64,000 bases of DNA from Bacteroidales bacterium (GTDB lineage Bacteria; Bacteroidota; Bacteroidia; Bacteroidales; P3). The position numbers and the translations under genes are program-made. Each line of letters starts with the position of its first letter. The first letter of the stretch is position 1. Under the pieces are notes generated by a model. It ran no database searches and was not told the origin of the DNA. It saw only the letters and a list, made by a program, of their open reading frames with translations. The stretch lies in NCBI GenBank assembly GCA_017522105.1, contig JAFXAA010000035.1, positions 1 to 64,000 of the forward strand, written 5' to 3'. Of this stretch, positions 5,494 through 59,885 are shown in pieces.

Positions 5494-7578
5494 GTGCTGC
5501 CGGGTGACGACATAGTATACCTCAAAGGCGTAGGCCCCTCGCGGGCCAAAGTCCTCGCCGCCGAGGCGGGCATACACACCTGCGGCGACCTGCTGCTCTA
5601 CTACCCCTTCCGCCACATAGACCGTTCGCAGCAGAGCACCATAGCGTCGCTGCACGACGAGAACCAGTACGTGGTGCTGCAAGGCACGGTGAGCAACATG
5701 CAGACCGCCAGCACCGGGCCGCGCCGCGAGCGGCTGACCGTGGACTTCAGCGACGGCACAGGCTCCCTGCAGCTCGTCTGGTTCCAGGGCACAAAATGGG
5801 TGCGCGAGAAACTCAAGCCCGGCGTGAAGTACACCGTCATGGGCAAGCCCACGGTGTTCAACGGCCAGTGGCAGATGACTCACCCCGAGCTGGAGGCCGC
5901 CGGTGCTTCCTCCGACAGCCACCAGCCTTTCCTGCCCATCTACCCCACCACAGAGAAGATGAAGCACAGCGGCCTCGGCACCCGCGCCATAGCGCGCCTC
6001 ACCGAGACCCTCGTCGGCTCCCTCGGCGGCATCGACGAGACCCTGCCTACCGACGTCATAGAGCGCTACCGCCTCCTTGGCCGCCGCGAGGCCCTCAAGG
6101 CCATACACTACCCCGACAGCCAGCAGCAGCTCGACGCCGCCCGCACGCGCCTGAAGTTCGAGGAACTCTTCTTCATGCAGCTCGACTACCAGTGGGCCCA
6201 CAGCGAGCGCCAGCAGCACTCCGCCGGGCGCGTCTTCGCCACCGTGGGCGACCACTTCAACCGCTTCTACAGCGAGAAGATACCCTTTCCTCTCACCGGG
6301 GCGCAGAAGCGCGTCATACGCGAAATACGCGAGGACATGCGCTCCGGCCACCAGATGAACCGTCTGCTGCAGGGCGACGTGGGCAGCGGCAAGACCCTCG
6401 TGGCCCTGATGTGCATGCTCCTGGCCATAGACAACGGCAGCCAGACATGCCTCATGGCCCCCACCGAGATACTGGCCACACAGCACTACAACACCTTCCT
6501 CCGCATGCTCGACGGCCTCGGCCTCGGCGTGGAGCTGCTGATAGGCAGCGTGCGGCCGGCCGACAAGAAGAAGATAAAAGCCCGCATCGCCGCCGGCGAG
6601 ACACACATCGTCATAGGCACCCACGCCCTCATCGAGGACGACGTCACCTTCCGCGACCTCGGCCTCGTGGTCATCGACGAGCAGCACCGCTTCGGCGTGG
6701 AACAGCGCAGCAAGCTCTGGGCCAAGGCCACGCCGCCGCCCCACGTGCTGGTGATGACCGCCACCCCCATACCGCGCACCCTGGCCATGACCGTCTACGG
6801 CGACCTGGACTGCTCCGTCATCGACGAGCTGCCCCCCGGGCGCCACCCCGTGCGCACCTACCACCGCACCGAGCCGCACCGCCCCTTGGTGTTCAGCTTC
6901 CTGAAGAAGCAGATAGACGCCGGGCGACAGGTCTACGTCGTCTACCCCCTCATCCACGAGAGCGAGAAGCTCGACCTCAAAGACCTCATCGACGGCCTGG
7001 AGATGGTGCAGAGCTACTTCCCGCGCCCGCAGTACCACGTCTCCATGCTCCACGGCGGCCTCACCGCCGAGGAGAAAGCCTTCGAGATGCAGCGTTTCAA
7101 GGAGGGCAAGACGCACATCATGGTGGCCACCACGGTGATAGAGGTGGGCGTCGACGTGCCCAACGCCACGGTGATGGTCATAGAGAACGCCGAACACTTC
7201 GGCCTCTCGCAGCTGCACCAGCTCCGCGGCCGCGTGGGACGCGGCGCCGAGCAGAGCTATTGCATCCTCATGACCAAAGACAGCCTCGGCTACTCCAGCC
7301 AGGAGCGCATACGCACCATGTGCAGCACCACCGACGGCTTCCAGATAGCCGAAGCCGACCTGCGGCTGCGCGGCCCCGGCGACATGCAGGGGCTGCAGCA
7401 GAGCGGCGTGCTGGACCTCAAGATAGCCTCCATCGTCGACGACGAGCCCCTCGTGGCCGCCGCGCGCAACGAGGTGCGCGACATCCTCGATGCCGACCCC
7501 ACCCTCGCCGCGCACCCCCTCCTGCTGCGCTACATAGAGCACTCGAAAAACAAGACACTGTGGAGCAAGATTAGTTAA
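5494..7578 (+). CDS. recG: ATP-dependent DNA helicase RecG
   Basis: Branch-migrating helicase that remodels stalled replication forks and recombination intermediates. The 694-residue product has the N-terminal wedge/OB domain, Walker A GDVGSGKT at ~294-301, the Walker B variant DEQHRFGVEQR, TATPIPRTLAM, and helicase C motifs including QLRGRVGRG. Length is normal. The start is GTG at 5494, 8 bp after coaD. Its TAA stop (7576-7578) lies inside a 7-bp repeat array that also supplies the next gene's start codon. Confidence 0.96.
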   Translation: MLPGDDIVYLKGVGPSRAKVLAAEAGIHTCGDLLLYYPFRHIDRSQQSTIASLHDENQYVVLQGTVSNMQTASTGPRRERLTVDFSDGTGSLQLVWFQGTKWVREKLKPGVKYTVMGKPTVFNGQWQMTHPELEAAGASSDSHQPFLPIYPTTEKMKHSGLGTRAIARLTETLVGSLGGIDETLPTDVIERYRLLGRREALKAIHYPDSQQQLDAARTRLKFEELFFMQLDYQWAHSERQQHSAGRVFATVGDHFNRFYSEKIPFPLTGAQKRVIREIREDMRSGHQMNRLLQGDVGSGKTLVALMCMLLAIDNGSQTCLMAPTEILATQHYNTFLRMLDGLGLGVELLIGSVRPADKKKIKARIAAGETHIVIGTHALIEDDVTFRDLGLVVIDEQHRFGVEQRSKLWAKATPPPHVLVMTATPIPRTLAMTVYGDLDCSVIDELPPGRHPVRTYHRTEPHRPLVFSFLKKQIDAGRQVYVVYPLIHESEKLDLKDLIDGLEMVQSYFPRPQYHVSMLHGGLTAEEKAFEMQRFKEGKTHIMVATTVIEVGVDVPNATVMVIENAEHFGLSQLHQLRGRVGRGAEQSYCILMTKDSLGYSSQERIRTMCSTTDGFQIAEADLRLRGPGDMQGLQQSGVLDLKIASIVDDEPLVAAARNEVRDILDADPTLAAHPLLLRYIEHSKNKTLWSKIS

Positions 7579-7709
7579 GAGTTAAGAGTTATGAGTTATG
7601 AGTTTGGCGATAAGGTTAATGTTGACAAGTTGAGAAGTTCCCACAAAAACTCCTCAACCCACCAGCCTGTCAACCCATCAACCTATCAACCTATCAACTT
7701 ATCAACCCG
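7573..7709. repeat. Heptamer array followed by inverted octamer array
   Basis: 7573-7605 is two AGTTAAG units, two AGTTATG units and a partial unit. 7621-7637 continues with GTTGACAA/GTTGAGAA. 7654-7709 is seven 8-bp units of the type TCAACCTA on the opposite strand sense. The first array contains the recG stop codon and the ATG of the GNAT gene; the octamer array encodes the low-complexity N-terminus of that acetyltransferase. Confidence 0.9.
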
Positions 7710-8079
7710 CCATCCTGTCGAGCTGGTGGCCGAAGAGGGGGCTTCGCTGTCGTCGGGGTCGCTGCGCCTCTACGCGCTGCCCTACGGCTGCGTCGACCTC
7801 TACGCCTACGACCCGCTGAACCGCCGCGCGGCGGTGGGCATCATGGTGGCCACGGAGCACCGCCGCAAGGGCTACGCCCTGGCCATGCTTGAGACCCTGC
7901 GCCACATGGCAGCCGACACCTACCGGCTGCACTGCCTCTATGCCGACATCGCCGCCACCAACACCGCCTCGACAGCCCTCTTCCGCAAGGCGGGCTACAG
8001 CGAGTGCGGACACTTCAAGGAGTGGCTCGAATACGACAGCCACTTCGTAGACACTATACGCATGCAACTGATACTATGA
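7591..8079 (+). CDS. GNAT-family N-acetyltransferase with repeat-encoded N-terminus
   Basis: Acetyl-CoA-dependent acyltransferase of unknown substrate. The core begins around residue 45 and shows the GNAT acetyl-CoA loop RRKGYALAMLETL and the late motif NTASTALFRKAGYSECGHFKEW, close to RimJ/RimL-like enzymes. The first ~45 residues are Ser/Thr/Pro/Asn/Gln-rich and are encoded by an 8-bp tandem array (7654-7709), so they are unlikely to be part of the original fold. The start ATG sits within an AGTTATG array; a start at a later codon cannot be excluded. The stop overlaps mltG by ATGA. Confidence 0.82.
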   Translation: MSYEFGDKVNVDKLRSSHKNSSTHQPVNPSTYQPINLSTRHPVELVAEEGASLSSGSLRLYALPYGCVDLYAYDPLNRRAAVGIMVATEHRRKGYALAMLETLRHMAADTYRLHCLYADIAATNTASTALFRKAGYSECGHFKEWLEYDSHFVDTIRMQLIL

Positions 8080-9059: not shown

Positions 9060-9108
9060 CTTCCCACGGATCCGCCCCGCCTCCCCGACGGGGTCGGTAC
9101 GGCCTTCC

Positions 9109-9161
9109 ACTGAAGAACGGCCGTAGGGGGGCCGTAGGGGCTCCGTAGGGACTCCGTACCC
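9109..9161. repeat. Half-copy of the 11-bp palindromic element
   Basis: ACTGAAGAACGG (9109-9120) is followed by three 11-bp units, CCGTAGGGGGG, CCGTAGGGGCT and CCGTAGGGACT, and then CCGTACCC. This is the right flank of the palindromes at 39652 and 61055 without a left arm. It lies between mltG and the T9SS cargo gene. Confidence 0.8.
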
Positions 9162-9181
9162 AAAACATGCTTTTGGGGTAC
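9156..9181 (+). terminator. Possible terminator hairpin after mltG
   Basis: GTACCCAAAA (9156-9165) pairs with TTTTGGGGTAC (9171-9181) with one bulged G and a 5-nt loop. It lies about 100 bp after the mltG stop. There is no clean T-run, so termination is only suggested. Confidence 0.4.
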
Positions 9182-9277
9182 GTGCAGTGACGGCGAACCG
9201 GGCGTTAAATATAGTTAAAAGCGGGGTGTGTTGACAACAAAATGAACATGCGCGCGTCATATATGCAAAAAAAAGGG

Positions 9278-11765: not shown

Positions 11766-11845
11766 AATGAAGAATGAAGAATGAAGAATAGGCTGACGCG
11801 TCCGCCCCGCACTATTCACTGTTCACTAATCACTGTTCACTAATC
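11766..11845. repeat. Heptamer element: forward array, core, inverted array
   Basis: Three AATGAAG units (11766-11786) are followed by a G+C-rich core (11791-11810) and five units of the form ACTNTTC/ACTAATC (11811-11845). It fills the gap between the T9SS cargo gene and asd, ending 5 bp before the asd ATG. Confidence 0.88.
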
Positions 11846-11850: not shown

Positions 11851-12846
11851 ATGAAGATTGCAGTAGTGGGAGCCACGGGGCTGGTGGGCCGCGAAATGCT
11901 CGCGGTGCTGGCCGAACGGGGCTTCGCAAAGGAAGAGATAATAGCGGCAGCCTCCGCCAAGAGCGTGGGCAAAGAGATTGACTTCGCCGACAGGCGGCTG
12001 ACGGTGCAGAGCGTGGACGACGCCATAGCGGCGCACCCGCAGTATGCCCTCTTCTCGGCCGGCGCCGCGGCATCGCGCCAGTATGCGCCGCTGTTCGCCA
12101 CCGTGGGCACCACGGTGATAGACAACAGTTCGGCTTGGCGCAAAGACCCACAGGTACCCCTGGTGGTGCCCGAGGTGAACATCGGAGCCGTCAGGCCCTC
12201 CGACAGGATAATAGCCAACCCCAACTGCAGCACCATACAGATGGTGCTCGCCCTCTCGGCCCTGGAGCGCGAATACGGCATACACCGCCTCGTGATAGCC
12301 ACCTACCAGAGCATCACCGGCACCGGCATCAAGGCCGTGCGGCAGCTGGAGGCCGAGGAGTGCGGCGAGAAGCCGTCAGAGACGGCCTACCCCTACCAAA
12401 TACACCGCAACCTCTTCCCCCACGGTGGCGACTTCCAGGCCGACGGCTACACCACCGAGGAGCAGAAACTGGTGGACGAGACACGCAAGATATTCGGCGA
12501 CCCGCAGATACAGATTACCGCCACCGTGGTGCGCGTGCCCGTGGTGGGCGGCCACAGCGAGGCCGTCAACGTGGAGCTGCGCAGGGACTATGAACTGGAC
12601 GACGTCAGGCGACTGATAGAGGACACGCCGGGAGTGATACTCTATGACAATCCGGCGAAGAACGAGTACCCCATGCCCATACTGGCGCACCACCGCGACG
12701 AGGTATGGGTGGGCCGCCTCAGGCGCGACTTCTCGCAGCCCAGGGCGCTGAACCTGTGGATAGTGGCCGACAATATACGCAAAGGTGCCGCCACCAACGC
12801 CGTACAGATTATGGAGAGGCTGGCGGGAATGAAGAATGAAGATTGA
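11851..12846 (+). CDS. asd: Aspartate-semialdehyde dehydrogenase
   Basis: Reduces aspartyl phosphate to the semialdehyde, the branch point to lysine, diaminopimelate, threonine and methionine. The 331-residue product starts with the NADP-binding loop VVGATGLVGREML; the catalytic Cys lies in NPNCSTIQMVLAL near residue 129. QSITGTGIKA and the late GGHSEAVN motif are typical. Length is normal. The last codons and the stop lie in an AATGAAG array that runs into the next gene's start. Confidence 0.96.
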   Translation: MKIAVVGATGLVGREMLAVLAERGFAKEEIIAAASAKSVGKEIDFADRRLTVQSVDDAIAAHPQYALFSAGAAASRQYAPLFATVGTTVIDNSSAWRKDPQVPLVVPEVNIGAVRPSDRIIANPNCSTIQMVLALSALEREYGIHRLVIATYQSITGTGIKAVRQLEAEECGEKPSETAYPYQIHRNLFPHGGDFQADGYTTEEQKLVDETRKIFGDPQIQITATVVRVPVVGGHSEAVNVELRRDYELDDVRRLIEDTPGVILYDNPAKNEYPMPILAHHRDEVWVGRLRRDFSQPRALNLWIVADNIRKGAATNAVQIMERLAGMKNED

Positions 12847-17645: not shown

Positions 17646-17708
17646 AGTTATTGGTCATTGGTGATTTCGCTATTCATTAATCACTATCCACCAATCACTA
17701 TTTACTTA
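17646..17708. repeat. Heptamer element between parC-like gene and GT4
   Basis: Three forward units (AGTTATT, GGTCATT, GGTGATT; 17646-17666), a 5-8 bp core, then inverted units of the form CACTATC/CACCAAT/CACTATT to 17708. The TAA stop of the topoisomerase gene (complement of 17706-17708) falls within it. Confidence 0.8.
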
Positions 17709-20379: not shown

Positions 20380-21912
20380 TCACTCCACACTCCTGAACCA
20401 GCGCCCATTGCGGAACTTCCCGCGGTCCTTGTCGCGGCTGAACACAATCCACTTGGCCTTGCCCACGATGTGATCCTCCGGCACAAAGCCCCAATAGCGG
20501 CTGTCCTGGCTGTGGTGGCGGTTGTCGCCCATCATCCAATAGTAGTCCTGCTTCACCGTGTAGGTCTCAGCAAGCTCGCCGTTGACGTAGTATTTGCCGT
20601 CCTTCACCTCCAGCTCGTTGTGCTCATACACCTCAATCAACCTGCGGTATATGGTCAGCGTGCTGTCGTTCAGCTCTATCACTTCACCCTTGGCAGGTAT
20701 GTGCACCGGCCCGAAGTTGTCCACACTCTGCTTCTGACCCTCGCGGTGCGGGAAGAGGTCCGTGTTCTCCGTCGCCTCCGCCGTGTCGCACACAATGTTA
20801 AGCTGCATGCCCAACGTAGAACTTGACAGACGCGACAGCTGCCTCTTCGTCAGCGGCACATTGTAGGCCAGCAGCACCCCCGTGCTGTCCGCCATGTAGG
20901 GCCCCGCATTCTCTATGTCCTGATAGCTCAACCCCAGCCGGTCGAGTTCCTGCATCACATACTGCGGCGGTATGCCGCGCGAGTTGGTCACAAACGAGTA
21001 CGTCGTCTGCGCCTCCCTCGGCGTCGCTATCGCCTTGCCGTCTATCAGCACCTCGTGGTTCACAATCTCCAGCGTCTCGCCGGGCAGGCCTATGCAGCGC
21101 TTGATATACAGCGTCTTCTTGTCCAACGGCCTCACAAACCATCCATCCCTCAGCAAATCCTTGTCCCCGCGGCGCACAGCGTCGTAGTACGTGTACTGGT
21201 TCCCCGGGCTCGCCTTCAGCGTCGTGTCGCCCTCCGGGAAGTTGAACACCACGGCGTCAAACCGCGCCACCTTCCCCAAACCAGGATAGCGGTGGTACGG
21301 CAGCTGCGGCCACCGCAGGTAGCTCTCCACCCTCTCGCCCGTACCCGGAATGGTGTTGTGCACCAGCGGTATGCTCAGCGGCGTCATCATCACCCTCGGC
21401 CCATAGCTCAGCTTGCTCACCACCAGGTAGTCGCCCGTCATCAGGCTTCCCTCCATCGAACTAGACGGTATGTTGTACAACTCCACGGTGAACGTCCTTA
21501 TCATCACAGCTGCCACCACCGCGAAGACTATCGCCTCCATCCAGTCGCGCCCCTCGCTCACCTTCACCGGCGGGTCCGTCTTCGGGTCATGGTACACCGC
21601 CGACTTCGACAAGCCGAGTATCGGCAGATAGATGAACGGAAACAGCACCGCGAAAAACTGCTCCCAGAAACTCGTTCGGTGGAACACCTTGGCAGTCTCC
21701 TGCACCAGCAGCAGAAACGTGAAGATATTCAGCGCCGGCACGAGGAAGTAGATATACCACTTCCACGACTTGCCGCACACCTTGATCCACACCACAATGT
21801 TGTACACCGGCACCAAGGCCTTCCATGGCCTCTCGCCAGCCTTCTTGAACACGAACCACAGCCCCGCTATGGTCCCAACGAAGTACAAAATCAGCAAAAC
21901 GTCGTAAATCAT
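20380..21912 (-). CDS. lepB: Signal peptidase I, large form
   Basis: Removes signal peptides from exported proteins at the inner-membrane outer face. The 510-residue product has an N-terminal extension with three hydrophobic segments (residues ~1-105) seen in Bacteroidota LepB, then the catalytic Ser in NIPSSSMEGSL and the Lys in LYIKRCIGLPGE, and finally MGDNRHHSQDSRYWGFVPEDHIVGKA. A long insertion lies between the catalytic lysine and this last box. The gene lies 31 bp before the topoisomerase gene; its start is next to an 8-bp repeat array. Confidence 0.94.
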   Translation of the reverse strand: MIYDVLLILYFVGTIAGLWFVFKKAGERPWKALVPVYNIVVWIKVCGKSWKWYIYFLVPALNIFTFLLLVQETAKVFHRTSFWEQFFAVLFPFIYLPILGLSKSAVYHDPKTDPPVKVSEGRDWMEAIVFAVVAAVMIRTFTVELYNIPSSSMEGSLMTGDYLVVSKLSYGPRVMMTPLSIPLVHNTIPGTGERVESYLRWPQLPYHRYPGLGKVARFDAVVFNFPEGDTTLKASPGNQYTYYDAVRRGDKDLLRDGWFVRPLDKKTLYIKRCIGLPGETLEIVNHEVLIDGKAIATPREAQTTYSFVTNSRGIPPQYVMQELDRLGLSYQDIENAGPYMADSTGVLLAYNVPLTKRQLSRLSSSTLGMQLNIVCDTAEATENTDLFPHREGQKQSVDNFGPVHIPAKGEVIELNDSTLTIYRRLIEVYEHNELEVKDGKYYVNGELAETYTVKQDYYWMMGDNRHHSQDSRYWGFVPEDHIVGKAKWIVFSRDKDRGKFRNGRWFRSVE

Positions 21913-21913
21913 A

Positions 21914-21996
21914 TTGCGTTAATGTGTTATTGCGTTATCGCGTCAGTGGTTGGCGCGTCCTCTCTAACGCATTGACGCACTAACGCACTAACGCAT
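21914..21996. repeat. Octamer element, inverted arrays
   Basis: Four forward units TTGCGTTA/ATGTGTTA/TTGCGTTA/TCGCGTCA (21914-21945), a ~19-bp core, then four inverted units TAACGCAT/TGACGCAC/TAACGCAC/TAACGCAT (21965-21996). It encodes about the last 22 residues of the adjacent glycosyltransferase and abuts the lepB start. Confidence 0.88.
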
Positions 21997-23099
21997 TCAA
22001 TCAGTTTTTCCTTCTCTTTGTTCCAATCCATATCCTCGCGCGCGGCGGCGAAATCCTCGTCCTGCCACTCCCTCGCCAGCACCCTCTCCACAGCCTCCGC
22101 CAACGCACGTGCTCCCGGCTCCGCCATCACCTCGCCCACACCGTAACGACGCACCACGTGCGCCATCTCCGGCAAATCGCTCACCACCATCGGCACCCCC
22201 GCTTGCACAAAAGCACCCACCCTGTTGGGCAGCGCGTAGTGGTAGCTAAGGCCCTTGTCCTCAAGCATCACCAACCCCACTGCTTGTGGGGAACGCGAGC
22301 CCGTCGAGCGAAACCCACAAGAAGCCTCCAGCGCCGTCATCTCCTCCGGCATCAGCCGACCCGTGAACACCACGCGGTCGGCCCAAGACTTCTCGGCGGC
22401 GTAAGCCTTCATCGCCTCCAGCAAGTCGCCGTCGCCGGCCACCACCAGGCGGCACCCCGGCAGCCACTCCAGCGCGTCGATGGCCCAGTCCACGCCCCTG
22501 CCGACATTCACTTTGCCGGCATAGAGAAGAGTGGCCAGTGGACAGTGGTCAGTGGACAGTATGCTGACGCGACAATGGCTTCCGCCCCTCTGGCCACTGA
22601 CCACTGACCACTGACCACTACTAAGGTTCCTCACCACGGTCATCTCAACCCCGTACCTGTCCTTGTAGTAGTCGGCTATCCCCTGGCTCACCGTCAGCAG
22701 CGCGTCGCACTTCGGCATCAGCCACCGCTCTATCGTCCTCCACACCCACTTCACCACCGGCTTGTCCTGTATCTCAGGCACTTCGTGGAACAGTTCATGG
22801 GCGTCCATCACCAGGCGGCAACGCCCGCGCGCCGCAAGCCAGCACCCCAACAGCGTGTCCGTATCGTTCGCCCATATCACATCGCACTCCATCCCACGCA
22901 GACGCCTCCACAGCCGCCAGTTGAACGCCGCATAGAAGCGCCAGCCGCGCTGCCAGCGCACCGGCAGGTCCGTCCGGCACACCGTCGTCACCTCATACCC
23001 CGCCTCGCGCAAAGCTTCGACGTGGCGCATAACACGCTGGTCGGTAAGCAAATCGTTGCTCACCGCCATCACAATCCGCGTGCTATTGTTGCTGTTCAC
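21927..23099 (-). CDS. Family 4-type glycosyltransferase carrying two repeat-derived inserts
   Basis: A 390-residue GT-B enzyme (RIVMAVSNDLLTDQRV at the N-terminus; VFTGRLMPEEMTALEA and LSYHYALPNRVGAFVQAGVPMV in the donor half). I use GTG at 23099 because the ATG at 23069 would remove the first beta strand. Two in-frame inserts look foreign to the fold: about 31 residues at 22530-22622 encoded by inverted heptamer arrays, and about 12 residues at 22283-22321 encoded by an imperfect palindrome. The C-terminus is encoded by the octamer array at 21914-21996. Likely role in surface glycan synthesis; activity after the inserts is uncertain. Confidence 0.78.
   Translation of the reverse strand: MNSNNSTRIVMAVSNDLLTDQRVMRHVEALREAGYEVTTVCRTDLPVRWQRGWRFYAAFNWRLWRRLRGMECDVIWANDTDTLLGCWLAARGRCRLVMDAHELFHEVPEIQDKPVVKWVWRTIERWLMPKCDALLTVSQGIADYYKDRYGVEMTVVRNLSSGQWSVVSGQRGGSHCRVSILSTDHCPLATLLYAGKVNVGRGVDWAIDALEWLPGCRLVVAGDGDLLEAMKAYAAEKSWADRVVFTGRLMPEEMTALEASCGFRSTGSRSPQAVGLVMLEDKGLSYHYALPNRVGAFVQAGVPMVVSDLPEMAHVVRRYGVGEVMAEPGARALAEAVERVLAREWQDEDFAAAREDMDWNKEKEKLIECVSALVRQCVREDAPTTDAITQ
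22530..22622. repeat. Inverted heptamer element inside a glycosyltransferase gene
   Basis: Forward units AGTGGCC, AGTGGAC, AGTGGTC, AGTGGAC, AGT (22530-22560), a 31-nt core, then GGCCACT and three GACCACT units plus ACT (22592-22622). The arms can pair as a hairpin. The 93-bp tract is 31 codons, so it leaves the host frame open. Confidence 0.92.
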
Positions 23100-23400
23100 C
23101 CTTCGGCCGTTATTATTATTTAAGTTACATAATAACGCGCCCGAACAAAATATCGTATTATCCCCCCGCAAAAAAGTTATCAACCGCCATTTTTGTGCAC
23201 ATAAATCCTCCCGACGGGCAAAAAACCATCAAAAAAAGGCGTTTTATATCAGCTTCTTACCGCATCATCTCTTACATTAGTCTTTAGTTTATCTTTAATA
23301 TGTCATTAATTAAATTTAATTTTGTAAGCAATAATAAGGTGTAATGTACGTTATATATAATGTCAATTATGTTTGAATAGTAATATAAAAGCTTATAGAT
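23100..23400. other. AT-rich intergenic region, no gene seen
   Basis: Between divergent genes. It is visibly richer in A+T than its surroundings. A TAATTTTG at 23317-23324 resembles the -7 box for the gene at 23401, but no partner element is at the expected distance. No RNA gene or repeat family member is recognised. Confidence 0.5.
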
Positions 23401-26167: not shown

Positions 26168-26670
26168 AGCTGAGCTATAAATACCACACATGGGACGTGC
26201 CGCTGTGGCTGCTGCGGCTGCTGAAGCACCGCATGCGGTGGGTGCGCGCCGCCGGCGGCATGGTGACGCGCGACGACGGCATGATGCTGCTCATAAAGCG
26301 CAACGGTCGCTGGGACCTGCCCAAGGGCAAGGTGGAGCCGGGCGAGACCCTCCTGCAGGGCGCCTTCCGCGAAGTGGAGGAAGAGACCGGCATTAAAGCG
26401 GACTGCGCACAGGGGCATACACTACCAACTACCAACTACCCACTACCCACTAAAACCTACCACATCTTCAACCTCTACGGCGGATGGCACCTGAAGCAGA
26501 CGTCGTGGTTCCCCATGACCACCGCCGGCAGCCAGGCCGCCAAGCCGCAGGAAGAGGAGGGCATCACCGGCGTGGAGTGGGTGACGCGCGACGAGTGGCA
26601 CCGCCGCTTGGAGGGCAGCTACGGCACCCTGCGCACCCTCTCGGAGACCATGAAAAACAGCACACTATGA
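26164..26670 (+). CDS. NUDIX hydrolase
   Basis: A 168-residue hydrolase of a nucleoside diphosphate linked to some other group; substrate unknown. The NUDIX box GX5EX7REUXEEXGU is intact (GKVEPGETLLQGAFREVEEETGI, preceded by RWDLPK). Just after the box, at the loop before the next beta strand, a heptamer array (26421-26451) encodes LPTTNYPLPT. The ATG overlaps the META lipoprotein stop, and the stop overlaps dprA, so the three genes are probably translationally coupled. Confidence 0.9.
   Translation: MKLSYKYHTWDVPLWLLRLLKHRMRWVRAAGGMVTRDDGMMLLIKRNGRWDLPKGKVEPGETLLQGAFREVEEETGIKADCAQGHTLPTTNYPLPTKTYHIFNLYGGWHLKQTSWFPMTTAGSQAAKPQEEEGITGVEWVTRDEWHRRLEGSYGTLRTLSETMKNSTL
26421..26451. repeat. Heptamer array inside the NUDIX gene
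   Basis: Two ACTACCA units, two ACTACCC units and a final ACT. It is read in frame as part of the NUDIX protein and is free of stop codons in the coding direction. No forward partner array is seen. Confidence 0.85.
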
Positions 26671-28408: not shown

Positions 28409-29916
28409 TAGACCTTGGTCTGAACCTCTACCGCACCATAGGCCGGGAGGCCGACCGCATGGGCATCGACGCCTACGCCGTGGGAGGCGTGGTGCGCGAC
28501 CATTTCCTCCAGCGCCCCTGCACCGACATAGACATCGTCTGCATAGGCCACAGCGAAGGCGGCGAGGTGCACATAGGCATAGAGCTGGCGCACGCCTCCT
28601 CGCGCGCCCTCGGCGGAGGCCATGTCTCTGTCTTCAAGACCTTCGGCACCGCCAGTTTCCGCTACACCGAAGACGGACGCGAGTACGAGCTGGAGTTCGT
28701 CGGCGCCCGCCGCGAGAGCTACAGCCACGACAGCCGCAAACCCGTGGTGGAGAACGGCACCCTGGAGGACGACCAGCGACGGCGCGACTTCACCGTCAAC
28801 GCCCTCGCCGTATGCCTCAACGCAGACCGCTACGGCGAGCTGATGGACCCCTTCGGCGGCATCAAGGACATGGATGACGGCATCCTGCGCACGCCGCTGG
28901 ACCCCGACATCACCTTCAGCGACGACCCCCTACGCATGATGCGCGCCGTGCGCTTCGCCAGCCAGCTGGGCTTCCGCATAGCCGACGACACCTTCGAGGC
29001 CATAGGCCGCAACGCGGAGCGCATAGCCATTGTCAGCACAGAACGCATCACCACTGAACTCAACAAGATAATGCTCTCCGCCAACCCCACGCTGGGTCTC
29101 AAGCTGATGCAGAAGAGTGGCCTCATGAAGCTCATCCTGCCCGAGATAGCAGCCCTGCAAGGCGTGGAGACAGTGGACGGACACGGCCATAAGGACATTT
29201 TCTTCCACACCATGCAGGTGCTGGACAATGTATGTCAAATGGAAAGTGAAAAGCGGAAAGCGGAAAGCGATGCCACGCAGACCACTGGAGACAACTCTCC
29301 ACTATCCACTACCCACTATCCACTATATCTCCGCTGGGCCGCCTTGCTGCACGATGTGGGCAAACCCGGAGTCAAACGCTACGATGCACGCCAGGGCTGG
29401 ACGTTCCACGGCCACGAGGCCCGCGGGGCGCACATGGTGAAGCGCATCTTCAAGCGCCTGCGCCTGCCCCTGGGCGAAGAGATGCGCTACGTGGAGAAGC
29501 TGGTCATGCTGCACATGCGCCCCATAGTGCTGGCCGAAGAGGTGGTCACCGACAGCGCTGTGCGCCGCCTCCTCTTCGAGGCTGGCGACGACATCGACGA
29601 CCTCATGCTCCTCTGCCACGCCGACATCACCACGCGCAACCTCGACAAGCAGCGCCGCCACCGCGAGAACTTCGAGCTCGTCAAACGCAAGCTCGTGGAG
29701 CTTGAAGAGCGCGACCGCATACGCAACTTCCAGCCGCCGGTGAGCGGCGAGGACATCATGACCGCCTTCGGCATAGGCCCCTGCCGCGAGATAGGCACCA
29801 TCAAGGACGCCATAAAGGATGCTATACTCGACGGCCAGATACCCAACGAGCGCGAGGCCGCCTGGCAGATGATGCTCCGCCTCGGCGCCGGGTTGGGATT
29901 GAAGGTTCATGAATAG
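28405..29916 (+). CDS. cca: CCA-adding/poly(A)-polymerase family nucleotidyltransferase with HD domain
   Basis: Adds or repairs the CCA end of tRNAs. The 503-residue protein has the class II signature (DAYAVGGVVRDHFLQRP followed by the catalytic DIDIV), RRRDFTVNALAV, DPLRMMRAVRFASQLGF, and an HD phosphohydrolase domain (LRWAALLHDVGKP). Between HTMQVLDNVCQ and LRWAALLHD it carries about 26 residues encoded by inverted heptamer arrays (29241-29329), where relatives have a short loop. The start overlaps the lipoprotein stop by ATGA. Confidence 0.92.
   Translation: MIDLGLNLYRTIGREADRMGIDAYAVGGVVRDHFLQRPCTDIDIVCIGHSEGGEVHIGIELAHASSRALGGGHVSVFKTFGTASFRYTEDGREYELEFVGARRESYSHDSRKPVVENGTLEDDQRRRDFTVNALAVCLNADRYGELMDPFGGIKDMDDGILRTPLDPDITFSDDPLRMMRAVRFASQLGFRIADDTFEAIGRNAERIAIVSTERITTELNKIMLSANPTLGLKLMQKSGLMKLILPEIAALQGVETVDGHGHKDIFFHTMQVLDNVCQMESEKRKAESDATQTTGDNSPLSTTHYPLYLRWAALLHDVGKPGVKRYDARQGWTFHGHEARGAHMVKRIFKRLRLPLGEEMRYVEKLVMLHMRPIVLAEEVVTDSAVRRLLFEAGDDIDDLMLLCHADITTRNLDKQRRHRENFELVKRKLVELEERDRIRNFQPPVSGEDIMTAFGIGPCREIGTIKDAIKDAILDGQIPNEREAAWQMMLRLGAGLGLKVHE
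29241..29329. repeat. Inverted heptamer element inside cca
   Basis: Four forward units (GGAAAGT, GAAAAGC, GGAAAGC, GGAAAGC; 29241-29268), a 26-nt core, then five units CTCTCCA, CTATCCA, CTACCCA, CTATCCA, CTATATC (29295-29329). The insertion leaves the host gene open and falls just before the HD motif. Confidence 0.9.
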
Positions 29917-29924: not shown

Positions 29925-29955
29925 TTTGTCATATCAGTATTATTTAGTAATTTTG
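29925..29955 (+). promoter_or_regulatory. Promoter for crt
   Basis: TTTG (29925-29928), 19 bp, then TAATTTTG (29948-29955), a close match to the Bacteroidota consensus. The crt ATG follows 24 bp later. Confidence 0.8.
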
Positions 29956-29979
29956 CAGCCTCAAAAAAACATAAACAAC

Positions 29980-30756
29980 ATGTACGAACACCTAAAGATA
30001 GAAGAGCGCGGGGCCATAGCCATCATGACCATCAGCGCACCGAAGAGCCTCAACGCACTGAACAGCAAAATACTGAGCGAGATTGACCAATACCTCGACG
30101 GTTTCGACTGCGATAAGTACCGCTGTCTGGTGGTGACCGGCGACGGCGAGAAGAGTTTTGTGGCGGGAGCCGACATCAGCGAGATGGCCGGCCTCAACGC
30201 CGCCGATGGCGAGGCTTTCGGCAAACGCGGTGCCAAGGTGTTCCGCAGACTGGAGACCCTGCCGGTGCCCGTCATAGCGGCCGTCAACGGTTTCGCCCTC
30301 GGCGGCGGCTGCGAGCTGGCAATGGCCTGCGACATACGCATCTGCTCCGACAACGCCAAATTCGGCCAGCCCGAGGTAGGCCTCGGCATCATCCCCGGCT
30401 TCAGCGGCACGGTACGCTTGGCGCGACTGGTGGGCATGGGCATGGCCAAGCAGCTGATATACACAGGCAAGGCCATCCGCGCCGATGAAGCGCTGCGCAT
30501 AGGGCTGGTCAATGCCGTGGTGCCGCAAGCAGAATTGATGGACAAGGTCATGGAGATGGCCGACCTGATTGCCAAGCAGGCACCGCTGGCAGTGCGCGCC
30601 GCCAAGGAGTGCATCAACGCCGAGTGGGACATGGACGCCGACGAGGCCATAGCCTGCGAGAACCGCGCCTTCGGCGAATGTTTCGCCACAGCCGACCAGA
30701 AGGGTGGCATGCGCGCCTTCCTCGACAAGAGCAAGTATGAGTTTCTGGGAAAGTAG
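29980..30756 (+). CDS. crt: Enoyl-CoA hydratase (crotonase type)
   Basis: Hydrates short-chain trans-2-enoyl-CoA (crotonyl-CoA) to 3-hydroxyacyl-CoA. The 258-residue product has the oxyanion-hole motif FVAGADISEM, AVNGFALGGGCELAMACDIR with the first catalytic Glu region, and FGQPEVGLGIIPGFSGTVRL with the second. Length and motifs fit crotonases. With hbd 75 bp downstream it provides the middle two steps of butyrate-type or CoA-dependent fermentation; thiolase and acyl-CoA dehydrogenase are not in the window. Own promoter; the start at 29980 lies 24 bp after it. Confidence 0.92.
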   Translation: MYEHLKIEERGAIAIMTISAPKSLNALNSKILSEIDQYLDGFDCDKYRCLVVTGDGEKSFVAGADISEMAGLNAADGEAFGKRGAKVFRRLETLPVPVIAAVNGFALGGGCELAMACDIRICSDNAKFGQPEVGLGIIPGFSGTVRLARLVGMGMAKQLIYTGKAIRADEALRIGLVNAVVPQAELMDKVMEMADLIAKQAPLAVRAAKECINAEWDMDADEAIACENRAFGECFATADQKGGMRAFLDKSKYEFLGK

Positions 30757-30788
30757 GGAGTAGACAGTAGGTAAGTAGGCAAGTAGAC
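30752..30788. repeat. AGTAGNN array at the crt stop
   Basis: Units AGTAGGG, AGTAGAC, AGTAGGTA, AGTAGGCA, AGTAGAC. The crt TAG stop (30754-30756) lies in the first unit, and every unit contains TAG. Confidence 0.82.
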
Positions 30789-35035: not shown

Positions 35036-37042
35036 CTAATCCAGTCTCCTTGCTATCACCATCCCCAAAGCGGAACCTATCTGCCGCGACAGGTCGGTGT
35101 ATTGTTTTATCTCCGCCAGCAGCTGCATCTGCTCCTCGTCCGACGCCCCCATCAAACGCTCGCGCCTTTCGGCGATCATCTGCGCCAGCCTCAAGCTCTT
35201 GAACGTGTTGAGGCTGTCTCTCACATCCTGCAGCAGGTTGTCTTCCTCTTTAGGCGGATAAATATTCTTTTTCTTCCACGACTCCTCACAGATGCTATAG
35301 GTGTCCATCATCACCGTGGCACAGAAGGTACGGAGCGCATCGTCGGCAGAATCCACGAAACGCGACACCTCCACCCTTCCGGCCATCTCCACCATCAGCG
35401 AGCACTGTTCCAGCACACGTTGGCACAGCGGATGCGAGAAGGAGAGTTTCTCGCCCTCCAACTCACCGACAATAATCTGCGCGACCGTATATGTGGACGT
35501 CTGCTGCGTGCCGTTCTCGTCCGTGAAGTCCTGGCTCAAAGCCTCGTTGCCATAGTTCAGCAGAAGTCTCACCAGATGGCGTTCCACCTCAGGCGGTGCC
35601 GTGTCGGTGGTCCGTGGTGAGTGGTCCGTGGTCAGTTTCTGCCCTGCGCCATCCGCTCCTTGCTCTCCGCTCTCCACTTTCCGCTCTCCACTCTCCACTT
35701 TCCGCTCTCCACTATCTTCAGCAACCTTCTGGCGGGCCGAGCCTATAGCCCTCGCCACAGCCGTTCCCAAAGCCTCCTCGCTCACCCTCAACATCTGGGA
35801 GCACTGCCTTATATACTCGCTGCGTTCCAGCAGGTCGGCCACCAGCGCTATGCTGCGCGCCGTCTCGCTGACGAGCTCGGCCTTGCGTATGGGGTCGTCC
35901 TTCACGCCGTCCAGCAGCACGCGCGTCTTGTACATGATGAAGTTGTCCTCGTGCGAGGCGAGGAACTCCTGCAGCTGTGTGGAGCCGTACTTCTGGGCGT
36001 AGCTGTCAGGGTCTTCGTCGTCGGGGAAAAGCACCAGCCTGACGTGCATGCCCTCGGCGAAGAGGAGGTCTATGGCGCGGAGCGCCGCCTTGACGCCCGC
36101 CTTGTCGCCGTCGTAGAGCACGGTGACGTTCTGCGTGTAGCGTTTGATGAGCCTTATCTGCTCCACCGTCAGGCTTGTGCCGCAGCTGGCCACGGTGTTC
36201 TCCACGCCGCTCTGGTGCATCGATATGACGTCCACGTTGCCCTCCACCAGGTAGCACTTGTCGGCCTTGGCGATGGCGGAGCGGGCCTGGTAGAGGCCGT
36301 AGAGGATGCGGCTCTTGTTGTATATGTCCGAGTCGGGCGAGTTGACGTATTTGGCGGCCTGCTTCTCGCTGGTGAGCACGCGGCCGCTGAAGCCCAGCAC
36401 ACGGCCGCTGATGCTGTAGATGGGGAACATCACGCGGCCGCGGAAACGGTCGTACTGCTTGCCGGTGTCCTCCTTGACGATGGTGAGGCCCGTCTTCTCC
36501 AGCACCTGCAGGCTGTAGCCGTTCTTCAGCGCGTGGTCGGTGAAGTTGCTCCACTCGTCGAGGCAGTAGCCCAGCCCGAAGCGCTTTATCACCTCGTCGC
36601 TGAGGCCGCGCCCGTGGAAGTAGCTCAGGCCCACGGCACGTCCCATCTCGTCGTTGTAGAGCAGGTCGGCGAAATACTTCTGCGCAAACTCGCTCACGTG
36701 GAACAGGCCGTCCCTTTCCGTCTGCCGCTGCTTCTCCTCCTCGGTCTGCTCCTCCTCCTTAATCTCTATGTGGTACTTGTCGGCCAGCCAGCGCAGCGCC
36801 TCGGGGTAGGTGTAGTGCTCATGCTTCATGAGGAACTTCACCACATCGCCCGCCTCACCGCAGCCGAAACACTTGAAGATGCCCTTCGACGGCGACACAT
36901 AGAACGACGGCGTCTTCTCGTTGTGGAACGGGCAGCAGCCTATATGGTTGGCGCCACGCTTCTTGAGCGACACAAAATCGCCTATCACCTCCTCGATGCG
37001 GGCGGCGTCCATAATGCGCTGTATGGTCTCCTGGTCAATCAT
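35036..37042 (-). CDS. dnaG: DNA primase carrying a repeat-encoded insert
   Basis: Synthesises RNA primers at the replication fork. The 668-residue protein has the CHC2 zinc site (Cys37, His40, Cys58, Cys61), the catalytic core with EGNVDVISMHQSGVENTVA, the TOPRIM acidic patch LYDGDKAGVKAA and DDEDPDSYAQ, and a C-terminal helicase-binding domain. Between the core and the C-terminal domain, about residues 444-478 are encoded by heptamer arrays (35607-35711) and read SGERKVESGERKVESG and a Thr/Asp/Pro stretch. The start MIDQET fits the family; its ATG is only 8 nt downstream of the -7 box. Confidence 0.96.
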   Translation of the reverse strand: MIDQETIQRIMDAARIEEVIGDFVSLKKRGANHIGCCPFHNEKTPSFYVSPSKGIFKCFGCGEAGDVVKFLMKHEHYTYPEALRWLADKYHIEIKEEEQTEEEKQRQTERDGLFHVSEFAQKYFADLLYNDEMGRAVGLSYFHGRGLSDEVIKRFGLGYCLDEWSNFTDHALKNGYSLQVLEKTGLTIVKEDTGKQYDRFRGRVMFPIYSISGRVLGFSGRVLTSEKQAAKYVNSPDSDIYNKSRILYGLYQARSAIAKADKCYLVEGNVDVISMHQSGVENTVASCGTSLTVEQIRLIKRYTQNVTVLYDGDKAGVKAALRAIDLLFAEGMHVRLVLFPDDEDPDSYAQKYGSTQLQEFLASHEDNFIMYKTRVLLDGVKDDPIRKAELVSETARSIALVADLLERSEYIRQCSQMLRVSEEALGTAVARAIGSARQKVAEDSGERKVESGERKVESGEQGADGAGQKLTTDHSPRTTDTAPPEVERHLVRLLLNYGNEALSQDFTDENGTQQTSTYTVAQIIVGELEGEKLSFSHPLCQRVLEQCSLMVEMAGRVEVSRFVDSADDALRTFCATVMMDTYSICEESWKKKNIYPPKEEDNLLQDVRDSLNTFKSLRLAQMIAERRERLMGASDEEQMQLLAEIKQYTDLSRQIGSALGMVIARRLD
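35607..35711. repeat. Two heptamer arrays inside dnaG
   Basis: Four units GTGGTCC, GTGGTGA, GTGGTCC, GTGGTCA (35607-35634), a core of about 28 nt, then seven units of CTCTCCG/CTCTCCA/CTTTCCG (35663-35711). They are read in frame on the minus strand in the linker before the primase C-terminal domain. Confidence 0.92.
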
Positions 37043-37084: not shown

Positions 37085-37115
37085 CTATTCACTAATCGCT
37101 AAACATTAATCACTT
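37085..37115. repeat. Heptamer array at the hydE stop
   Basis: CTATTCA, CTAATCG, CTAAACA, TTAATCA and a partial unit. The hydE stop (complement of 37110-37112) is inside it, and its other edge touches the -33 side of the dnaG promoter. Confidence 0.75.
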
Positions 37116-38135: not shown

Positions 38136-38145
38136 GATGCGGGAA

Positions 38146-38230
38146 TGTGTTAATGCGTTAATGCGTTAGTGTGTTAGTTGTCGGCGACAAGCTATTAATC
38201 ACAAGTCACCAATCACCCATCCTCAATCAC
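38146..38230. repeat. Octamer array and inverted heptamer-like array between hydE and GH20-like gene
   Basis: Forward units TGTGTTAA, TGCGTTAA, TGCGTTAG, TGTGTTAG (38146-38177), a short core, then degenerate inverted units such as CACCAAT to 38230, which includes the stop of the GH20-like gene (complement of 38227-38229). Confidence 0.78.
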
Positions 38231-39651: not shown

Positions 39652-39766
39652 CCCCTACGGCATTTCTTCAGTAGTTCTTCAGTAGTTCTTCAGTCAAACA
39701 CTGAAGAACTACTGAAGAACTACTGAAGAACTACTGAAGAAATGCCGTAGGGACTCCGTAGGGGCA
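39652..39766. repeat. Palindrome of 11-bp units, copy 2
   Basis: Left arm 39652-39694 is identical to that of copy 1, with the same loop CAAAC (39695-39699). The right arm (39700-39752) has one extra 11-bp unit (four versus three), then CCGTAGGGACT and CCGTAGGGGCA. It lies between the divergent GH20-like and flippase genes. Confidence 0.95.
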
Positions 39767-41602: not shown

Positions 41603-41606
41603 TGGG

Positions 41607-41643
41607 AGTTTTAAGTTTTGAGTTTTGAGTTATGAGTTATGAG
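41607..41643. repeat. Heptamer array holding the radical SAM start codon
   Basis: AGTTTTA, AGTTTTG, AGTTTTG, AGTTATG, AGTTATG and AG. The ATG at 41632 is in the fourth unit, giving the N-terminus MSYED; the GNAT gene at 7591 starts the same way (MSYE). Confidence 0.9.
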
Positions 41644-42571
41644 GACACTGGACGCTGCACGCTGTGTCCGCGGCGGTGCGGAGTGCGAAGGGATGCGGCA
41701 CAGGGCTTCTGCGGCGCCACGGAGGCCTTGGAGGTGGCCACGGTGTGCGTGCACCGCGGCGAGGAGCCTCCGCTGAACCCCATCGTCAACGTCTTCTTCG
41801 CCCACTGCAACCTGCAGTGCATCTACTGCCAGAACTGGCAGATCAGCGGTGGAGAGTGGAGAGCGGAAAGTGGAGAGTGGAAAGTGGAAAGTGGAAAGCA
41901 TAGAGTCGCTGGCGGAGCGCATCTGCCGGTTGTTCTCCTCGCTCGACTCGCCAGGCACCACACCCATGCTGGGGCTCGTCACTGCCGCCCACTATGCCGA
42001 CCGCATGGCGGCGCTTGTGGAGGAGCTGCACCGGCGCGGCTGCACGCCCACGGTGGTGTACAACAGCGGCGGCTACGAGAGCGTGGAGACCCTGCGGAGC
42101 CTCGAAGGGCTGGTGGACGTCTACCTGCCCGACCTCAAGTACATGGACGGCGCCCTTGCGGCCCGCTACAGCCACGCGGCGGACTACCCCGAGGTGGCGG
42201 CGGCGGCGCTGAAGGAAATGAAGAGGCAGGTGGGCGGGGGCCTGATGGCGGACGACGGGGGACGCGCCTACCGCGGCATGATAGTGCGCCACCTGGTGCT
42301 GCCGGGGGCCACGGACAACTCGCTGAAGTGCCTCGAATGGCTGGCGGACCACTTCAACCCCTTCACGCTGCACCTCTCGCTCATGGCGCAGTACTTCCCG
42401 CCGCGCCAGGGCCTTCCGGCTCCGCTGGACCGCACGCTGACGGCGGAGGAATACGCCACGGTGACCGACCGCGCCGCCGCGCTGGGCTTCACCGAAGGAT
42501 GGGTGCAGGAGCTGGAGGCTCGCGACAACTACCGCCCGGACTTTGACCGCAAGGACAACCCCTTTGAATAG
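41632..42571 (+). pseudogene. Radical SAM protein (PflA-like) split into two frames at a heptamer array
   Basis: The N-terminal part (from ATG 41632) has CTLCPRRCGV, GFCGATEAL and the cluster motif CNLQCIYC (C59, C63, C66) and runs into a seven-unit array at 41849-41897. The remainder (VVYNSGGYESVETLRSL, DVYLPDLKYMDG, IVRHLVLPGATDNSLK, TEGWVQELE) continues in a frame shifted by one and ends at 42571; this part can be read from GTG 41849. Relatives are single proteins of about 300 residues. Removing one 7-bp unit rejoins the frames. So the gene is phase-variable, decayed, or carries a sequence error. Substrate unknown; related enzymes are glycyl-radical-activase-like. Confidence 0.85.
41849..41897 (+). 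repeat. Seven-unit heptamer array at the radical SAM frame break
   Basis: Exactly seven units: GTGGAGA, GTGGAGA, GCGGAAA, GTGGAGA, GTGGAAA, GTGGAAA, GTGGAAA. Stop-free in the coding direction in all frames. With six (or nine) units the two halves of the gene would be in one frame. Confidence 0.95.
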
Positions 42572-56169: not shown

Positions 56170-56234
56170 AACTGCATTTTTTGGGCTTCTATATATATGA
56201 CGAGGAGGTAGCCGATTTATAACATTTTTTAACT

Positions 56235-56831: not shown

Positions 56832-56843
56832 AAATCCTGCTTT

Positions 56844-57407: not shown

Positions 57408-57410
57408 AAT

Positions 57411-57452
57411 CTTAAACTTTATACCTTAAATTTTAAACCTTAAACCTCATAC
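57411..57452. repeat. Heptamer array between rnfD and rnfG
   Basis: Six units: CTTAAAC, TTTATAC, CTTAAAT, TTTAAAC, CTTAAAC, CTCATAC. The rnfD stop (complement of 57447-57449) lies in the last unit. Confidence 0.85.
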
Positions 57453-58406
57453 CGCGAAGCGGGTGGGCTTGAACCAGCGGTTGAGCAGCGGCGTGACGCT
57501 GTTCATGATGAGGATGGCGAAGCTCACGCCCTCGGGGTAAGAACCCCAGTTGCGGATGATGATGGTCAGCAGGCCGCATCCGAAACCGAATATCAGCTGG
57601 CCGCTCTTGGCCATGGGGCTGGTCACCATGTCGGTAGCCATGAAGCAGGCGCCCAGCATGATGCCGCCGGTGAGGATGGTCATCACGGGGTCCATATACG
57701 CCGTGGGGTCAATGAGCCACAGGATGCCGCTGAACAGGAACGCCGTGCCGATAAAGGCCACGGGGATATGCCAGCTGATGACTTTCTTCCACAGCAGGTA
57801 GCAGGCGCCAAGCAGTATGGCTATGGCGCTCACCTCGCCCATGGAACCGCCTATATGGCCCAGGAAGGCATCCATGAAGGTGACACCCTCGCCGAGGGCG
57901 CCCTCCTTGAAGGCCCCGAGGGGCGTGGCTCCCGTGGGCACGTCAAAGCCCATGGGGAACAGACCTTCGGCCACAGGCCACGTGGTCATCTGCACGGGGA
58001 AGCTGATGAGCAGGAACACGCGGCCCACCAGCGCGGGATTGAAGGGGTTCTTGCCCAGGCCGCCGAAACTCATCTTGCCGATGCCTATGGCCACCAGGGC
58101 GCCTATCACCACTATCCACAGCATCTGCGCCGTGGCAGGCACGTTGAAGGCCAGCAGCAAACCCGTCACCACGGCCGAGCCGTCGCCGATGGAGGTCGGC
58201 ACCTTCATGATGAACTTCTCTATCAGCCACTGGAAGAGCACGCAACTCGCCACAGAGACGAGGCTCACCAGCAGGGCCGGAAGTCCGAAATAGGCTATGG
58301 CGCAGAGCAGCGCCGGCACCAGCGCCATATTGACGCGCCACATGATTTTCTTTGTCGACTCGTCGCTGTGCACATGGGGCGAGCCTGATACATTTAATAT
58401 ATTCAT
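57447..58406 (-). CDS. rnfD: Rnf complex subunit RnfD
   Basis: Integral membrane flavoprotein with about nine helices, 319 residues. FMN-threonine attachment is expected in DVPTGATPLGAF near residue 178. GKNPFNPALVGRVFLL is a typical family segment, and GFGCGLLTIIIRNWGSYPEGVSFAIL lies near the end. It is spaced 64 bp from rnfC. Confidence 0.94.
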   Translation of the reverse strand: MNILNVSGSPHVHSDESTKKIMWRVNMALVPALLCAIAYFGLPALLVSLVSVASCVLFQWLIEKFIMKVPTSIGDGSAVVTGLLLAFNVPATAQMLWIVVIGALVAIGIGKMSFGGLGKNPFNPALVGRVFLLISFPVQMTTWPVAEGLFPMGFDVPTGATPLGAFKEGALGEGVTFMDAFLGHIGGSMGEVSAIAILLGACYLLWKKVISWHIPVAFIGTAFLFSGILWLIDPTAYMDPVMTILTGGIMLGACFMATDMVTSPMAKSGQLIFGFGCGLLTIIIRNWGSYPEGVSFAILIMNSVTPLLNRWFKPTRFAV

Positions 58407-58470
58407 AGTTTATTATTTATTCATTCAACTACTTATCCACGGTCTACTTACCTACAGTCTTCTTACCAAC

Positions 58471-59799: not shown

Positions 59800-59801
59800 A
59801 C

Positions 59802-59885
59802 AGTTTTAAGTTTTAAGTTTCAAACTTTAAGTGGCTTGCGCCGTCGGCGGCAGCCCACTTAAAACTTACAGCTTACAGCTAACAG
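59802..59885. repeat. Inverted heptamer element between rnfB and rnfC
   Basis: Forward AGTTTTA, AGTTTTA, AGTTTCA (59802-59822), a ~35-bp core with a G+C-rich palindrome GCCGTCGGCGGC, then CTTAAAA, CTTACAG, CTTACAG, CTAACAG (59858-59885). Confidence 0.85.

Follow-up and report, generated by a model that had tools for sequence, protein, structure and literature searches.

Arrays of 7-bp and 8-bp units in a Bacteroidales contig

The window analysed here is a 64,000-nucleotide stretch, contig C35 of a 2.28-Mb Bacteroidales draft genome of 59% G+C (G000; G0xx and G3xx labels denote the genomes compared, among which G002 is a sister species, and L0xx and L1xx labels single loci or stretches). A 16S search of this draft genome gave no match. 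Between and inside its genes lie short tandem arrays in which period 7 dominates and period 8 is also present (Table 1). The arrays are genuine and belong to a known kind, the heptanucleotide repeats of the LSSR/STRR class, and they obey a direction rule: adjacent arrays that differ in strand type are oriented toward one another, with the 3′ end of the AGT/GGT strand toward the core, pairs with non-complementary arms included.

All 16 intervals listed in an earlier note were read and scored, and 13 of them reached 17 or more self-matches out of 21 with a period of 7 or 8, with weaker scores of 14-15 of 21 at 17646-17708, 30752-30788 and 37085-37115. The unit was 8 bp, not 7 bp, in the right half of 7573-7716, at 21914-21996, at 30752-30788 and in the left half of 38146-38230. 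At a threshold of at least 17/21 the window held 14 such places, against a mean of 0.01 and a maximum of 1 in 100 shuffles within 300-base blocks, and the arrays thus withstood the comparison with shuffled sequence. In a G000 sample of 454,371 bases, consisting of the window and 20 further stretches, 48 period-7 arrays reached at least 18/21, whereas one Markov copy and one local shuffle each yielded none; besides 7, the other strong basic period of this sample was 11. The earlier note had described a design common to sites whose units differ, units agreeing within a site, a placement both between and inside genes, and no adjoining gene that accounts for the arrays, all of which was borne out. 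Long arrays were also seen at or near contig ends (G000 C4:43-143, C5:1-164, C16:277-335 and C19:159-238), and still longer arrays may therefore be cut by assembly.

Table 1. Tandem arrays of the window with their positions, strand and context (ORF, open reading frame).
Feature	Position	Strand	Context
7-bp array AGTTAAG/AGTTATG	7573..7604	+	Gene junction; GNAT ORF 7591-8079 begins within it
8-bp array TCAACCTA	7654..7716	-	Faces array 7573..7604; codes N-terminal residues of ORF 7591-8079
Facing pair AATGAAG / core with GCTGACGCG / CACTATT-CACTAAT	11766..11845	.	Non-complementary arms; intergenic, ahead of semialdehyde dehydrogenase ORF 11851
7-bp array GAATGAA	12827..12860	+	Overlaps end of ORF 11851-12846
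Weak 7-bp arrays (14/21) TTGGTCA / CACTATC	17646..17708	.	
8-bp facing pair TTGCGTTA / CTAACGCA	21912..21996	.	Codes C-terminal tail of glycosyltransferase-type ORF 21927-23183
Complementary facing pair AGTGGAC / core / CTGACCA	22530..22622	.	Within ORF 21927-23183; other sequence in relatives' slot
7-bp array ACTACCA/ACTACCC	26420..26461	-	In frame within NUDIX ORF 26098-26670
Facing pair GGAAAGC / core / CACTATC	29241..29329	.	In frame within tRNA-nucleotidyltransferase-type gene (PolyA_pol and HD domains)
8-bp array AGTAGGTA (15/21)	30752..30788	+	End of ORF 29926-30756; longer in G023, almost absent in G008
Facing pair GTGGTCC/GTGGTGA / core / CACTCTC	35599..35713	.	DnaG ORF 35036-37042; non-complementary arms
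Weak 7-bp array (15/21) CACTAAT	37085..37115	-	Without match in G023 or G008
8-bp array AATGCGTT facing weak AATCACC array	38144..38230	.	
7-bp array GAGTTTT/GAGTTAT	41606..41643	+	Includes the ORF 41632 start codon; G023 and G008 have homologous arrays
7-bp array GTGGAAA	41849..41898	+	Within gene from 41632; flanking frames disagree in G000
7-bp array AACCTTA	57408..57453	-	G023 and G008 instead have a GTTGATA array, then GCGTCAGC
Facing pair AGTTTTA / GC-rich core / ACTTACAGC	59802..59885	.	G023 almost identical, G008 different

Relation to known heptanucleotide repeats and distribution

The assignment to the LSSR/STRR class follows from dispersed tandem arrays of 7-bp units far above chance and from hairpins formed in part with a complementary array (27 of 44 facing pairs have complementary arms, and some sites fold as described below). 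The earlier statement that no described element fits did not survive: according to the relevant sections of four papers, heptanucleotide repeats, including two-armed hairpins and wholesale replacement of unit classes, are known in cyanobacteria and other bacteria (PMC4476775, PMC2670836, PMC4679880, PMC4692102). The P6b stem of the Nostoc trnL intron carries TDNGATT or NNTGAGT heptamers with repeated wholesale class replacement (PMC4476775). It resembles the present arrays in its 7-bp units, its arms on both stem sides and the class swap at a fixed slot, and NNTGAGT fits the AGTTATG type of G000, whereas it concerns one cyanobacterial RNA-gene locus and the Bacteroidales arrays occupy many sites, protein genes too, follow a one-way rule and include pairs whose arms are not complementary. 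In cyanobacteria, STRR hairpins are found between genes and are usually built from 7-bp repeats (PMC2670836); those of filamentous cyanobacteria are likewise 7-bp intergenic arrays that form hairpins in part, and the unit GACCTCC is common to Nostoc HK-01 plasmids and the Bacteroidales locus L031, the one unit found in common. However, they belong to another phylum, their orientation is not treated in the description consulted, and a sample of 335 kb of Nostoc HK-01 plasmids contained 10 period-7 arrays with only 2 facing and 0 outward pairs. In Nostoc HK-01 plasmid3 (L174), G-rich and C-rich heptamer arrays at 2090-2133 and 4287-4329 face each other across an annotated transposase gene (2197-3858). 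TAACTGA arrays are known from Beggiatoaceae, from cyanobacteria and from five Bacteroidetes (PMC4679880), and Xanthomonas and Nostoc have GGGAATC and GGGGA(C/T)T repeats (PMC4692102); the TAACTGA and Xanthomonas GGGAATC repeats are also dispersed heptamer arrays, but have one main unit per genome, and the Beggiatoa arrays lie mostly directly before start codons. In the open-licence literature searched, no description was found of the direction rule or of heptamer arrays in Bacteroidales protein genes, nor of the rule's independence from pairing, the order-wide spread, array turnover in coding slots or a core motif common to some pairs.

The abundance of the arrays differed strongly among related genomes. 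A four-unit AGT-anchored pattern matched in 50 of 61 genomes, and G013, G016 and G029, which are of the same genus as G000, gave zero matches to this pattern and to its control. Period-7 arrays numbered 63 in the 454 kb of G000 and 89 in 200 kb of G002, covering 0.6% and 2% of the bases, respectively; samples of 100 kb contained 0 in G016 and 1 in G029, and one 50-kb stretch of E. coli K-12 had zero. With so wide a gradient inside one genus, from hardly any arrays to 2% of the DNA, the cause can be tested through gene-content comparison.

Unit sequence and anchor

The units are free except for a loose purine-purine-T (RRT) anchor and, in the genus of G000, a C-poor strand. Expectation-maximisation with free strand and rotation gave, from 65 G000 arrays, a motif of A[GA]T plus nearly C-free positions, with a score of 3.18 against at most 1.40 in 10 position-permuted sets; 81 arrays of relatives, a set in which orthologous arrays were kept, scored 2.88 against at most 0.98. 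The AGT anchor of the earlier note stood in part: AGT or ACT was repeated in three successive 7-mers at 9 of the 16 window sites, and it is only a partial anchor, one case of the looser RRT rule. Since a TGA-type control pattern was as frequent as AGT in several sister species, AGT was rejected as a fixed anchor; RRT describes it best, without holding universally.

Neighbouring arrays face each other

Orientation was counted on arrays classed by G or C excess (100 of 528 were undecided and left out) and paired with neighbours at most 70 bp away, after removal of repeated pairs by an 18-base key. The neighbours of opposite strand type comprised 44 G-then-C (facing) and 0 C-then-G (outward) pairs, for which the two-sided binomial value of 1.1e-13 is overstated if pairs have common ancestry. 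The arms were non-complementary in 17 of the 44 pairs, and among the AGT matches listed, with one N-bearing site and shifted duplicates excluded, arms agreed at 4 or fewer of the 8 spacer bases in 27 of 49 facing sites. Over the order, AGT pairs were facing in 114 of 393 genomes (85 of 206 genera) and outward in 11 (10 genera), and GGT pairs were facing in 31 and outward in 3 of 384 genomes. Outward AGT matches came chiefly from G364, G365 and G320, and five of the 7 outward GGT matches came from G320, inside ACCGGGT-type arrays. At G364:C63:31287-31836 an outward pair is tandemly repeated several times, and this stretch is a main source of exceptions to the rule. The controls were the AGT and GGT patterns read backwards, that is, with TGA and TGG anchors, counted by eye; because their bias is weak or absent, the direction rule is tied to the RRT reading.

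Such a one-way rule over an order, in arms unable to pair as well, is a mechanical clue beyond plain slippage. Although heptamer repeats in bacteria are an old observation, there is no consensus on why the period is 7; heptanucleotides are reported to be the commonest class of long repeats in most of the genomes examined, and a polymerase contact of 7 nt has been proposed (Mrazek et al. 2007, as summarised in PMC4679880). This prevalence would suit ordinary replication slippage with a polymerase-set 7-nt step in unconstrained DNA, the inverted pairs arising from template switching, as would the degenerate period-7 sequence at the 41849 slot of G023 and G008. Slippage is strand-symmetric, however, and so gives neither the 44:0 facing excess nor the 114 against 11 genomes; close species range from none to 2% of their DNA, and one array, described below, keeps a constant length in three relatives. 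Slippage is therefore a rather unlikely origin.

Orthologous slots carry different arrays

The arrays occupy permissive slots (gaps, gene ends and protein loops), and orthologous slots carry different arrays. G023 and G008 are 84.7% and 82.5% identical to G000, respectively, over about 59 kb, and in many window slots they have another array or none. The array at 41606 is homologous in the three genomes, and a syntenic match to the sites at 37085 and 38146 was absent in G023 and G008. The site at 59802-59885 differs from G023 by about one mismatch in its 84 bp, and most nearby 250-bp blocks are only 0.90-0.94 identical. Orthologous slots vary in length and flank, and no target duplication was seen by eye.

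Turnover was clearest in two genes. For the tRNA-nucleotidyltransferase-type gene (Pfam PolyA_pol and HD), 47 loci were found in named genomes; 37 of them belong to uncultured Bacteroidales/Bacteroidetes metagenome-assembled genomes, mainly from rumen and from other gut samples, and 10 to Marinimicrobia. Among the former 37, the slot between HTMQVLDNV and LRWAALLHD kept a basal length of 99 nt at 23 loci and differed in length at 14, about nine of which contained, by eye, heptamer-like runs of unlike units; in L043 an 8-bp pair is nested within 7-bp arrays. The slot length was a multiple of three in 37 of 37 loci, and every printed translation was free of stops. Rickettsia palindromic elements are likewise palindromic inserts that stay in frame within protein genes, but they form fixed sequence families, whereas the units here are free. 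The slot at 22530 in the glycosyltransferase-type gene kept its frame and was stop-free in 19 of 19 loci (13 genomes after removal of duplicates), and was occupied by arrays of AACTCAT, GGAGGTT or AATTGAG, by plain palindromes or by sequence without a clear repeat. The AACTCAT array had the same length in G008, G023 and L037, its copies differing by point changes only. The exception to frame keeping is the gene from 41632, in which the G000 frames disagree across the 41849 array; G023 and G008 read through this slot, and intact copies of the gene therefore exist. With its start codon in one array and a frame break at the second, the gene at 41606-41898 is possibly phase-variable, judging from its sequence. 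Arrays rewrite loops and ends of a primase, a tRNA nucleotidyltransferase, a NUDIX protein and a glycosyltransferase, and are therefore a source of new coding sequence.

By a crude calling of ORFs of at least 100 amino acids, 81 of 192 single arrays lay within ORFs (coding fraction 0.90), where the G-rich strand was antisense to sense at 53:28, an excess that may be due to avoidance of stop codons. Between co-directional genes the G-rich strand of single arrays was sense in 42 and antisense in 17.

Folding and shared cores of paired arrays

Compared with shuffles, the fold z values were -7.55 at 22530, -3.79 at 59802, -3.40 at 21914, -2.84 at 29241 and -0.53 at 11766; the last site folds no better than its shuffles and still obeys the orientation rule, and the single array tested did not fold. 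Because an outward pair would pair equally by strand symmetry, hairpin pairing alone does not predict the rule. It could follow from selection if the arrays were RNA or DNA hairpin signals at gene ends, acting in termination, mRNA stability or translation, in which the RNA needs its purine-rich arm ahead of the other. The strong folds at 22530, 59802, 21914 and 29241 and the 42 to 17 sense excess between co-directional genes agree with such signals, and roles of hairpins have been discussed for cyanobacterial STRRs (PMC2670836). Against them stand the many single arrays inside ORFs, the fact that most arrays are single, the unfolded site at 11766 and the life of G016 and G029 without arrays, which make selected signals an improbable cause.

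Similarity among the cores was found at some of the paired sites. Among 36 facing pairs found by complementarity, several cores from G002 read GCTACGCAG...GCGKCAGCC with differing arm units, and three G364 sites combine a common core with unlike arms. In a core score scan of seven groups, all three 18/18 matches lay at facing pairs (two in G002 and one in the held-out G023), whereas at 17/18 only 3 of 9 lay near arrays, two of the nine (in G023 and G008) being within an inverted repeat without 7-bp arrays, and at 16/18 most lay away from arrays. The enrichment of core 6-mers equalled, and did not exceed, that of the best random set. GCTGACG or GCTACGC was found in the 30-bp flanks of 0 of 218 single arrays, and GCGTCAG on the 3′ side of two of them. 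Seven nine-letter core words chosen by eye lay near arrays in 14 of 37 cases in G002 and 9 of 99 in G000, their genomes of origin, and elsewhere in 4 of 25 in G023, 0 of 11 in G008 and 3 of 83 in other relatives, with base fractions of 0.013-0.048. Core similarity appears to mark some paired sites rather than the arrays as a whole.

These results bear on the main and serious rival to the directional extension proposed below, a copied palindromic element: an ancestral hairpin of core and heptamer arms would have been spread by an enzyme, slippage and drift would have altered the arms, lone arrays would be decayed halves, and the direction would be inherited. The 27 of 44 facing pairs with complementary arms, the shared G002 cores with differing arm units, the position of all three 18/18 matches, one of them held out, at facing pairs, the three G364 sites and the nested 8-bp pair of L043 all speak for copying. 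The absence of GCTGACG and GCTACGC from the flanks of all 218 single arrays, the 6-mer enrichment no higher than in the best random set, the 3 of 9 matches near arrays at 17/18, the 17 of 44 pairs that face though non-complementary, the lack of a visible target duplication and the poor fit of RAYT (below) speak against it, and as an account of the arrays as a whole it is possible though doubtful. The earlier note had argued against copying of one fixed element. That probably holds for most arrays; at some paired sites of sister species that have a common core, copying may have occurred.

Proposed directional extension of 3′ ends

From the geometry of the arrays we tentatively favour, as a plausible reading, heptanucleotide arrays written in place by a directional process, the extension of 3′ ends in 7-nt steps. 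Of the readings considered it agrees best with the 44:0 facing excess, its 17 pairs with non-complementary arms, the order-wide AGT and GGT counts, the unfolded but correctly oriented site at 11766, the unit motif score and the replacement of arrays in orthologous slots; bacteria are also known to synthesise tandem repeats in a telomerase-like manner (DRT10; PMC12632851). The RRT strand would be the strand being made, its 3′ end realigning at each step on a short anchor, as telomerase or DRT10 does. A one-sided event would leave a single array. Where a break or stalled fork had each of its two 3′ ends extended and the ends were then joined, the outcome would be a facing pair with a filler core, which is the geometry of a telomere-telomere fusion. 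Because units mostly agree within a site, and often between arms, one event would usually use one template, and selection would retain arrays outside genes and those that leave the reading frame intact. The wider proposal, a widespread bacterial activity that extends 3′ ends at breaks or stalled forks with 7-nt RRT-anchored repeats in a telomerase-like healing, the ends then being joined and the facing arrays being scars kept in tolerant gaps and loops, across Bacteroidales and perhaps cyanobacteria, is unlikely.

Several observations weigh against directional extension. No array-forming event was observed, and the synthesis itself is deduced from an orientation that fits 3′-directional addition. 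Neighbours of the same type also occur (15 C-C and 7 G-G pairs), the 27 complementary facing pairs would be explained by a copied hairpin as well, and similarity of cores across some paired sites is unexpected for random filler. In G364 and G320 there are more outward than facing AGT pairs, 13 to 9 and 5 to 1, respectively. The TGA anchor shows a weaker bias of its own (facing in 58 and outward in 32 of 393 genomes), and with the TGG anchor the bias is absent (14 and 11 of 384). Finally, no enzyme for array making was identified, and RAYT, RVT_1 and Ku do not fit. RVT_1 was not found in G002, the genome with most pattern matches, although diverged reverse transcriptases could be missed, and its number does not follow array number (Spearman -0.08 over 37 genomes); Ku was found in 0 of 41 genus genomes. 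A reverse transcriptase as required factor and Ku-dependent end joining were accordingly rejected.

The reverse transcriptase results also concern a further rival, that the arrays are products of a DRT10-type telomerase-like reverse transcriptase captured in the chromosome. DRT10 is a bacterial enzyme that realigns on a short template repeat and so produces tandem repeats (PMC12632851), and its addition of a tandem repeat to a 3′ end resembles the step proposed here; RVT_1 genes were present in 16 of 41 genus genomes, G000 included. However, its units are of 9 nt and other lengths, its cDNA is protein-primed and, in the sections of that paper describing it, not shown in the chromosome, and reverse transcriptases do not track the arrays, being missing from G002, present once in the array-free G029 and uncorrelated with array number. 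Such an origin is very improbable.

RAYT transposase genes are common in the genus (29 of 41 genomes), and the REP/REPIN elements that RAYT mobilises are, like the arrays, dispersed short palindromes. By eye, 16 RAYT genes in 12 stretches were adjoined, where repeats were visible, by other palindromes, and 7-bp arrays lay 0.3-1.2 kb from the RAYT gene in L088, L089, L090, L092 and L099, never adjoining it. Array number did not track RAYT number (Spearman 0.11, P 0.5, 37 genomes; medians of 136.5 with and 62 without RAYT), and the genomes without RAYT include the array-free G016 and G029 but also G014 with 233 pattern matches. RAYT was rejected as the source. The RAYT-flank palindromes in L088-L099 vary by species, for example CCAGCC...GGCTGG and CAGTGTGGGG.

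A second family of facing arrays with period 11

The window also contains a second, distinct family of facing arrays, of period 11, at 13-79, 39664-39741 and 61100-61173, which is missing from the earlier note. These consist of TTCTTCAGTAG, the spacer CAAAC and ACTGAAGAACT. They were rejected as part of the 7-bp phenomenon, for they persist in G016 and G029, with 0 and 1 period-7 arrays in samples of 100 kb. G029 carries a different 11-bp version, GTTCTTCGATT, in several copies that resemble one another, and many of these have the ends CCGTCTG/CAGACGG. Period-11 repeats of CCGTAGGGGCT occur at 9121-9158 of the window and also border 11-bp facing arrays, and similar repeats of CCGTAGGG lie in the stretch around the RAYT gene of G000 (L088).

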